IMG/VR virus record: IMGVR_UViG_3300004369_000116
Location: 1-27,045 of that record
Strand: one strand, 5' to 3'
Origin: a virus
DNA: 27,045 nt
The translations under genes and the position numbers were made by a program. The notes beneath the pieces were generated by a model. That model saw only the letters and a program-made list of their open reading frames with translations, made no database searches and was not told the DNA's origin. Shown here in pieces: positions 3,014 through 4,119 of the stretch (position 1 is its first letter; every line of letters begins with the position of its first letter).

Positions 3014-3217
3014 ATGCATAAAGAAAACTACAGAACTTTTTGTAAGTGGGCCAGAGAAAAAAAGTATCGGCTTACAACAGACGCAGAGAAATACTTTGTT
3101 AGCACCCATACCCAGTCTGCGTGGGATGCTTGGAACGGTGCGCTTATGTGTAAACACGCAGATAAATGGAATGATGAAGCAAAGCGTTTAAGCACGATGC
3201 TTAAGCAAATTTGTTGA
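3014..3217 (+). CDS. Unknown 67-residue protein
   Basis: I choose ATG 3014 because GGAGG ends five bases before it; an in-frame TTG at 3002 would put that site inside the gene. The product begins MHKENYRTFCKWAREKKYRL and is basic, aromatic-rich and probably all-helical. No motif or family is recognised. It is bounded by the inverted repeat upstream and by the leader region of the replication gene downstream, so it may have its own control. Function unknown. Confidence 0.6.
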   Translation: MHKENYRTFCKWAREKKYRLTTDAEKYFVSTHTQSAWDAWNGALMCKHADKWNDEAKRLSTMLKQIC

Positions 3218-3241
3218 ACTTTTTTCTGTCTGTGGTATCTT
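3214..3241 (+). promoter_or_regulatory. Sigma70-type promoter candidate for the replication block
   Basis: TTGAAC at 3214-3219 and TATCTT at 3236-3241 are separated by 16 bases, and TGG just before the -10 gives an extended -10. Transcription would start near 3248, right at the first hairpin of the structured leader. TATGAT at 3241-3246 is an alternative -10 with poorer spacing. Confidence 0.5.
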
Positions 3242-3247
3242 ATGATC

Positions 3248-3361
3248 TGTGCCGTGAGAAGCACAAAGTGGAGGCAGTAGCCAGTTCCTTTCAGATCGGC
3301 CCGCTGCCAGTTTTATACGCAATGTAGGCCTCCCGCTGGATTCTCACCCTGTGCGGGCCGA
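3248..3361 (+). ncRNA. Structured leader RNA with pseudoknot potential
   Basis: Four pairings are exact. TGTGC/GCACA (3248-3252/3261-3265) makes a hairpin whose loop contains GTGAGAA. That loop matches TTCTCAC at 3341-3347. GGAGGC (3270-3275) matches GCCTCC (3328-3333). TCGGCCCGC (3296-3304) matches GCGGGCCGA (3353-3361), a nine-base-pair stem that crosses the previous two. The crossing makes a pseudoknot or a set of alternative folds. The last strand ends four bases before the AAAGGGA ribosome binding site of the DUF1376 gene, so cis regulation of that gene is plausible. No tRNA signature is present, and I recognise no named riboswitch class. Confidence 0.5.
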
Positions 3362-3378
3362 CCTAAAGGGAATTGGTT

Positions 3379-4119
3379 ATGTACTACTACAGCTTCAACA
3401 TTGGTGACTACCGTAAGAATACAGTTCACCTATCTCGGCTTGAACACTCCATTTATCGCGACCTCATAGACTGGTATTACCTAGACGAGTCTCCTATTCC
3501 ACTAGAAACCCAGTCGGTTTCCAGGCGGTTACGACTCGCAACCGAGGAGGAACGGAACGCTTTAATTGCGGTTCTTCAGGACTTCTTTTTTCAAGCAGAA
3601 GATGGCTGGCGGCACAAAAGAATAGATGCCGATATCGAAAAATATCGTAACCAATGCGCTACAAACCGAGTTAATGGCGGTAATGGTGGTCGACCTAAGA
3701 AGGATAAAAACCCAGTCGGTTTCCAGTCGCAACCCAGTCGTAACCCTAACCAAGAACCAATAACCAATAACCATAAACCAATAAAAAAACTACTTGCGCC
3801 TGAAGGCGTGTCTTCAGAGGTATGGGACTCTTTTCTTCAGCAAAGGCAAAAGACGCGGGCAGTAGTAACCGAGACGGTTATAAAGACAATCCAGAAGGAA
3901 GCTGATCTTGCGGGCTGGCCTTTAGAAAGGGCATTGTCCGAGATCGTGGCTCGCGGCTGGAGAGGGTTTAAGGCCGAGTGGGTGAAAGACAAACAGGAAG
4001 ATAAACTGTTAACTTTTGCGGAAAGGGACGAACAGTTAAAGAGAAAAAAGTGGGAAGAGATGACTGGCAGGAAGTGGCCTGAACCTGGTCAAACCGCAGA
4101 AAGGTTGCTAACACTATGA
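3379..4119 (+). CDS. DUF1376 (YdaU-like) replication initiator protein
   Basis: A 246-residue protein starting at ATG 3379 after AAAGGGA. Residues 1-90 (MYYYSFNIGDYRKNTVHLSR, then LEHSIYRDLIDWYYLDE and a winged-helix-like RRLRLATEEERNALIAVLQDF) match my memory of DUF1376, found at the start of many phage and prophage replication proteins. Residues 95-135 are a low-complexity linker rich in Asn, Gln, Pro and Lys. The C-terminal 100 residues (from LAPEGVSSEVWDSFLQQRQK to FKAEWV) are the usual helical tail of such proteins. It overlaps the next gene by ATGA. The likely role is origin recognition. The linker DNA holds iteron-like repeats, as in lambda O. Confidence 0.75.
   Translation: MYYYSFNIGDYRKNTVHLSRLEHSIYRDLIDWYYLDESPIPLETQSVSRRLRLATEEERNALIAVLQDFFFQAEDGWRHKRIDADIEKYRNQCATNRVNGGNGGRPKKDKNPVGFQSQPSRNPNQEPITNNHKPIKKLLAPEGVSSEVWDSFLQQRQKTRAVVTETVIKTIQKEADLAGWPLERALSEIVARGWRGFKAEWVKDKQEDKLLTFAERDEQLKRKKWEEMTGRKWPEPGQTAERLLTL
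3506..3790 (+). repeat. Iteron-like repeats and A-rich tract: candidate replication origin
   Basis: AAACCCAGTCGGTTTCCAG occurs exactly at 3506-3524 and 3708-3726, with a shorter copy AACCCAGTCG at 3731-3740. The two long copies lie 202 bases apart and are read in different frames of the same gene, so protein sequence does not explain the identity. They are followed at 3750-3790 by an A-rich, G-poor tract with repeated ACCAATA units. Iterons followed by an AT-rich unwinding tract inside the initiator gene is the lambda O/ori arrangement. Confidence 0.5.

Follow-up and report, generated by a model that had tools for sequence, protein, structure and literature searches.

A conserved pseudoknotted leader RNA upstream of the replication initiator of uncultured phages: a candidate translational switch

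Results

The leader and its surroundings

The DNA analysed here (the window, a stretch of 27,045 nt) belongs to an uncultured phage, and the 27-kb record carries terminase, SU10-type portal, scaffold and head genes; no integrase was seen among the window ORFs that were searched. Its replication region holds a gene for a DUF1376 replication initiator, which is followed by a gene with a weak PHROGs match to a P-like helicase loader. In front of the initiator lies a leader of about 131 nt, whose 5' end is the start site of a conserved promoter and whose 3' end is the start codon of the initiator. A terminator-like hairpin (3186-3206) sits just 5' of this promoter and is the only one returned by the structure scan, which found no terminator-like stem inside the leader. 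Further upstream, an inverted repeat (TTTTTTCACG...CGTGAAAAAA, 2950-2985) precedes a small ORF starting near 3015. The features of the locus are as follows.

3214..3241, + strand: sigma70-like promoter, with -35 TTGAAC (3214-3219), a 16-nt spacer and -10 TATCTT (3236-3241)
3248..3378, + strand: whole structured leader RNA, matched over exactly this range at 58.7 bits by R1, a covariance model of clade-B leaders only
3248..3265, + strand: P1, 5-bp hairpin TGTGC (3248-3252) / GCACA (3261-3265) at the likely RNA 5' end; two-sided changes with the pairs kept
3254..3260, + strand: loop element a, GTGAGAA, pairing with a' in 58 of 59 distinct leaders
3270..3275, + strand: P2 5' strand GGAGGC, hypervariable yet complementary in relatives; column pair 23/104 tops the covariation of 2678 pairs
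3277..3291, + strand: P4 5' strand, anti-Shine-Dalgarno, from the minimum-energy fold; two-sided changes beside the Shine-Dalgarno (SD) sequence in relatives
3296..3304, + strand: P3 5' strand TCGGCCCGC; unrelated P3 sequences in three clades, all complementary
3316..3326, + strand: P5, small hairpin TAC-GCAAT-GTA; TAC/GTA in clade A and CCC/GGG (ACCC/GGGT) in clade B
3328..3333, + strand: P2 3' strand (P2') GCCTCC, complement of the P2 5' strand, with covariation
3341..3347, + strand: target element a', TTCTCAC, complement of a, with covariation
3353..3361, + strand: P3 3' strand GCGGGCCGA, exact complement of the P3 5' strand
3365..3371, + strand: SD sequence AAAGGGA, assigned from its sequence and its position 5' of the ATG at 3379
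3366..3380, + strand: P4 3' strand, which holds the SD and reaches the start codon, from the minimum-energy fold and covariation
3379..4119, + strand: DUF1376 replication initiator, the regulated gene (Pfam PF07120, E=1.1e-26; PHROGs primosomal protein / replication O-like)

The window promoter scores below the threshold of a generic promoter scan. When upstream regions were compared, the best -10 element ended 5-6 nt 5' of P1 in 38 of the 44 non-redundant relatives, and a gap of 4-8 nt between -10 and P1 was found in 91% of these regions and in 13% of shuffles. Because this placement is constant, the transcript most likely begins with P1, at 3248, and the start near 3248 proposed in a preliminary description of this DNA is well supported. 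The pairings given in that description (the hairpin TGTGC/GCACA, the loop GTGAGAA with TTCTCAC, GGAGGC with GCCTCC and the nine-bp stem TCGGCCCGC/GCGGGCCGA) are all exact, and they nest and cross as it had said; none of 20,000 dinucleotide-shuffled leaders contained the same set. It had also placed the ribosome binding site four bases past the last stem. AAAGGGA does follow there, but it is itself paired: the minimum-energy fold of the leader (-51.4 kcal/mol, z -2.9) adds a pairing of 3277-3291 with 3366-3380, which continues the crossing stem P3, encloses the SD and touches the ATG. This stem, P4, and its likely mutual exclusion with the pseudoknot had been overlooked, and P4 is probably the most important element of the leader.

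Relatives of the leader

A protein search of IMG/VR gave 48 loci, and the leader was recognisable 5' of many of them; DNA patterns derived from its conserved parts added many more, which brings the total to more than 90 contigs of IMG/VR that fall into three clades by sequence; this count excludes pattern matches in coding genes (L066, L069, L073, L074, L076, L078, L079, L086 and duplicates, L146). For model R1, 21 clade-B leaders were used, and only the nested stems P1, P3, P4 and P5 were included. With no clade A leader in it, it found the window leader with E 6e-14 (about 1e-13), and it scored L013, of the third clade (C), at 72 bits. Alignment of 66 leaders to the model gave 63 distinct rows. 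Minus-strand matches of 30-37 bits were rejected as the self-complementary stem read backwards and not as genes, and so was L036 (22.8 bits with filters off), which looks like a plain terminator hairpin.

Two pattern scans of 84,980 prokaryote genomes gave no match to the leader, searches of GenBank phages and plasmids gave no leader match either, one of them yielding chance 31-nt matches only, and named DUF1376 phage records held no good covariance-model match. There was no second leader copy in the examined stretches of any contig. No family of Rfam 15 matches the leader, which the preliminary description could not link to a named riboswitch class either. Published large-scale computational screens for viral RNAs may include it without a name; as far as could be checked, the leader is a new RNA family.

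Covariation of the pairings

In the 63-row alignment, 97.1% of base-pair cells hold standard pairs, and this falls to 35-43% when the partners are slid by 1-3 columns. Two-sided changes occur in 33 of 49 pairs (231 such cells, against 55 in shuffles), no measure was reached by any of 500 shuffles, and the compensating covariation also holds within clade B alone. By MI-APC, the top ten of 2678 column pairs belong to P2, P4 and a, or are direct neighbours or offsets of a; since neither a/a' nor P2 was in model R1, the alignment had not been fitted to these pairings.

Four loop/target types were found, all matched: GTGAGAA/TTCTCAC, GTGGAAA/TTTCCAC, GTGGC/GCCAC and GTGACAA/TTGTCAC. The sole exception among the 59 distinct leaders is L128 (435-568), otherwise like L107 and L116, in which loop GTGAGAG is mismatched with target TTTCCAC; its 5' half looks like the L107 type and its 3' half like the L116 type, which suggests a recombinant or a chimeric assembly. 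Cognate duplexes are more stable than non-cognate ones both for loop and target (-7.6 versus -4.2 kcal/mol) and for P2 (-14.1 versus -9.7 kcal/mol). The P3 sequences of clades A, B and C are unrelated and each fully paired, that of L013 being wholly different with 13/13 positions paired; in L093 each strand of P3 carries one inserted base, which adds a base pair, and L004, L005, L015 and L072 carry matching two-base insertions. In P4, the compensatory changes adjoin the SD (TTTCGG/CCGAA, TATCGG/CCGAT, CATTGG/CCAATG, TTAGG/CCTAA), and relatives gain up to 6 more pairs toward the start codon. Columns 43/146 hold G-U or G-C in 63 of 63 rows, and the conserved G-U wobbles, which exist on the + strand only, suggest that the selected molecule is RNA of that strand. 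By this comparison all these leader pairings are evidently under selection. The preliminary description had named stem loss without compensation in homologues as evidence against it; the opposite was found, the stems being kept with compensating changes on both sides.

On a clade-B tree of 117 columns, made without the loop and target columns and giving rough change counts, the loop type changes at least 13 times, of which at least 10 are exchanges between AG and GA, with both sides changing together. Independently of the tree, leaders identical elsewhere differ in both loop and target (L101/L104; L107, L111/L116; L127/L113, L140). The two toggling pairs are AU and GC only, except in L112, which has a rare CG, and in L128 with its mismatch, and unlike P2 and P4 they lack stable wobble intermediates.

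Genes downstream of the leader

Start codons after the leaders are mostly weak (GTG 30, TTG 24, ATG 12). With regard to a translated leader peptide coupled to the initiator, a feature of the plasmid pseudoknot leaders compared below, a GTG...TAG mini-frame occurs in many clade-B leaders, is absent from the GTGGC types and is altered in clade A; no consistent leader peptide was seen among the leaders. The genes that follow the leaders encode a variety of DUF1376 proteins; in some contigs (L150, L091, L108, L115) they encode other initiator-like proteins, that of L091 with a weak DnaT match. At L065:11682-11950 and L091:2615-3551, the leader is followed by an ORF of about 40 codons and then by a non-DUF1376 initiator-like protein with a weak DnaT-domain match. 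In the window (initiator gene, 3379-4116) and in L002, L007, L008 and L010, near-identical leaders are joined to clearly different DUF1376 N-terminal domains, which indicates that leader and initiator recombine at the gene start. The leader travels with the replication operon and not with one protein family.

In five contigs an ORF lies exactly between leader and initiator-like gene: HNH-like in L102, L121 and L129, by a sub-threshold Pfam match, and GIY-YIG in L013 and L140. These ORFs (L013:1478-1770 among them) are free-standing and apparently use the SD of the leader. The leader/start region may be a homing target.

Discussion

The leader is a real, conserved, structured RNA. We infer translational control of replication initiation as its function, probably in the manner of a switch that turns viral DNA replication on and off. 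It appears to be a + strand RNA that begins at a promoter, directly precedes replication initiators and has covarying stems, so that the original proposal of an undescribed cis-regulatory RNA controlling replication is supported as its best reading, ahead of the alternative of a free small RNA.

With moderate confidence we lean towards a switch that acts on translation from the 5' UTR of the replication operon, in which two competing folds would gate translation of the initiator. By comparison of the leaders, P3 and P4 together form a hairpin of about 25 bp (24-29 bp across leaders, about 70 angstroms) that buries the SD and reaches the start codon, and its apical loop contains a' and P2', the complements of the P1 loop a and the P2 5' strand. 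The linker from the P2 5' strand to P4 has a median of 3-4 nt and a range of about 0-8 (a dangling base is counted in its printed end), as against the roughly 70 angstroms of the helix. The P2+a pairing should therefore be sterically incompatible with a complete P3+P4 helix in one molecule, and from this exclusion two states would follow. In the hairpin state (P1, P3, P4) the SD would be closed and translation of the initiator OFF; in the pseudoknot state (P1, a-a', P2, P3) P4 would be open and the initiator made (ON). Opening of P4 would free 13 more nt, and P3, P2 and a could then fit together. Since P2' and a' are made ahead of the SD strand as the RNA is transcribed, the pseudoknot could be the first fold to form.

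The argument for the ON state is thus steric and energetic. Mean stem energies are -17.3 (P4), -23.7 (P3), -7.6 (a) and -14.3 (P2) kcal/mol, and the comparison of about -17 for P4 with about -22 kcal/mol for a+P2 excludes the pseudoknot penalty and tertiary effects; the two values are of similar size. Folding kinetics, a protein or another leader molecule are candidates for tipping this balance. No ligand, protein or antisense partner of the leader was identified. The hairpin is so stable that a and P2 might pair only from one molecule to another.

The two-allele toggling of loop and target is what specificity groups would produce, and it supports trans specificity as a hint, not as a demonstration. 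In one version, which we consider unlikely, the leader would be its own trans-regulator: the a' and P2' elements of closed hairpins would capture the P1 loop and P2 strand of new transcripts and so block the ON pseudoknot. If this were true, initiator output would fall as genome copies rise, the phage would sense its copy number without a separate antisense gene, and the loop/target types would be incompatibility or superinfection groups kept by selection.

A trans-acting antisense RNA of the P1/P7 C4 or P4 CI type is a possible and, in our judgement, rather improbable explanation. The 5' part of the leader, with the P1 loop and P2 strand released or acting as RNA, would silence the initiator on other transcripts via a' and P2', in a role of immunity or copy-number control. 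The order of the blocks (a and the P2/P4 strands, then P2', a' and the SD strand) gives a pseudoknot in cis, which is the arrangement expected of a two-loop antisense RNA with its target; the exchange of AG/CT and GA/TC, at least 10 times and also between leaders identical elsewhere, suits such an RNA as well, and other DUF1376 phages hold int-alpA-like small-RNA matches below the cut-off in the same slot. The window has neither a C4 nor an int-alpA match in Rfam, however, the leader contains no terminator-like stem and no contig a second copy in the stretches examined, and the SD-burying stem is intramolecular and covaries, all of which argues against this explanation.

It is quite unlikely that the leader senses a ligand or a protein, whether as a riboswitch or as an autoregulatory operator to which the initiator or a different protein of the phage would bind. 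A compact conserved RNA with SD control is consistent with such an element, as are the conserved unpaired ATAG after P1 and CCGGAA in clade B, but most of the conservation is in stems and these unpaired stretches do not occur in clade A. The downstream genes are several unrelated-looking replication proteins and not a metabolic pathway, and the swapping of initiators under one leader type speaks against autoregulation by the initiator. A known riboswitch class was rejected because there is no Rfam match and the genes are replication initiators, and attenuation was ruled out by the lack of a terminator-like structure within the leader. A structure acting as DNA (an origin, a packaging site or a homing-endonuclease site) is very improbable. 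The position at the replication locus and the HNH/GIY-YIG ORFs exactly between leader and initiator in five contigs would suit it, but an RNA is what the promoter-P1 spacing, the SD pairing, the G-U wobbles on one strand and the unchanging distance from the start codon speak for.

Many uncultured phages thus have, at their replication switch, an RNA family that is well supported by covariation and absent from Rfam. As it occurs in front of several different initiator families, the leader can serve to mark this group of phages and their replication cassettes, and the natural two-allele toggling of loop and target makes trans specificity directly testable.

Comparison with known systems

The CI RNA of phage P4 lies in the leader of a replication operon, has internal complementarities and works as a small RNA, processed from that leader, through premature termination of transcription, whereas no terminator-like stem was found inside the window leader. 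C4 antisense RNA (RF01695, phages P1/P7) is likewise a phage RNA upstream of the gene it controls, with two complementary blocks in pseudoknot order and the SD region as target. The present leader differs in that its controlled gene is the initiator and that there is no evidence of a processed small RNA; identity with C4 was rejected, as the covariance model gave no match at gathering in the window, nor any at E<=10 in 3150-3480.

The int-alpA RNA (RF02996) is a small RNA borne by phages and other elements, and int-alpA-like matches occur in the same slot in four relatives whose DUF1376 gene has a different leader, at 30-34 bits against a cut-off of 35.8 (L028:2909-2983, L021:2909-2986, L024:2910-2985, L027:2915-2980); a CCTCC loop, read by eye, complements a downstream GGAGG in L025 and L028. 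The window leader differs in fold and sequence, and without a covariance-model match to RF02996 this identity was also rejected. More than one RNA class may therefore occupy the initiator slot in such phages. About 150 nt before the DUF1376 start, L030, L035 and L038 carry a GC-rich leader with the look of a three-way junction (GGATAG-hairpin-GAAAAG-hairpin-CC), possibly another RNA family; no Rfam match was reported for it at E<=0.05 in L030 and L038.

Among plasmids, the closest systems are the pseudoknot-gated initiator leaders of repZ of ColIb-P9 (IncI-alpha; Asano & Mizobuchi 1998) and of repA of IncB and IncL/M plasmids, cited in PMC10724649 and PMC12365149. A switch between a closed hairpin and an open pseudoknot, as proposed here, is reported for repZ (cited in PMC10724649) and for IncL/M repA (cited in PMC12365149), and in those plasmids a counter-transcribed antisense RNA from the opposite strand blocks the pseudoknot. 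In IncK plasmids single loop bases decide incompatibility, as shown for RNAI loops (PMC10724649). Unlike these leaders, ours stands in a phage context, has P2 as an additional covarying stem and buries the SD in a far longer one, and no sequence similarity was found. A search for consensus-type promoters in 66 leaders plus 120 nt gave no conserved minus-strand promoter-like site for a countertranscript. Because no countertranscript was found, and because of the extra P2 and the phage context, the leader is not a member of the plasmid group on the features tested, yet it appears to work like them. As in I-complex and IncL/M leaders, a 5' hairpin loop pairs with a distal sequence (58/59 leaders) with two-sided changes, this pairing adjoins a stem in which the initiator's SD is enclosed (here P4), and the initiator is the controlled gene. 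Loop bases set specificity in the plasmid leaders, and the loop/target toggling hints at the same here. If the two-fold switch is true, these phages would set the dose of their initiator by a plasmid-like pseudoknot gate.
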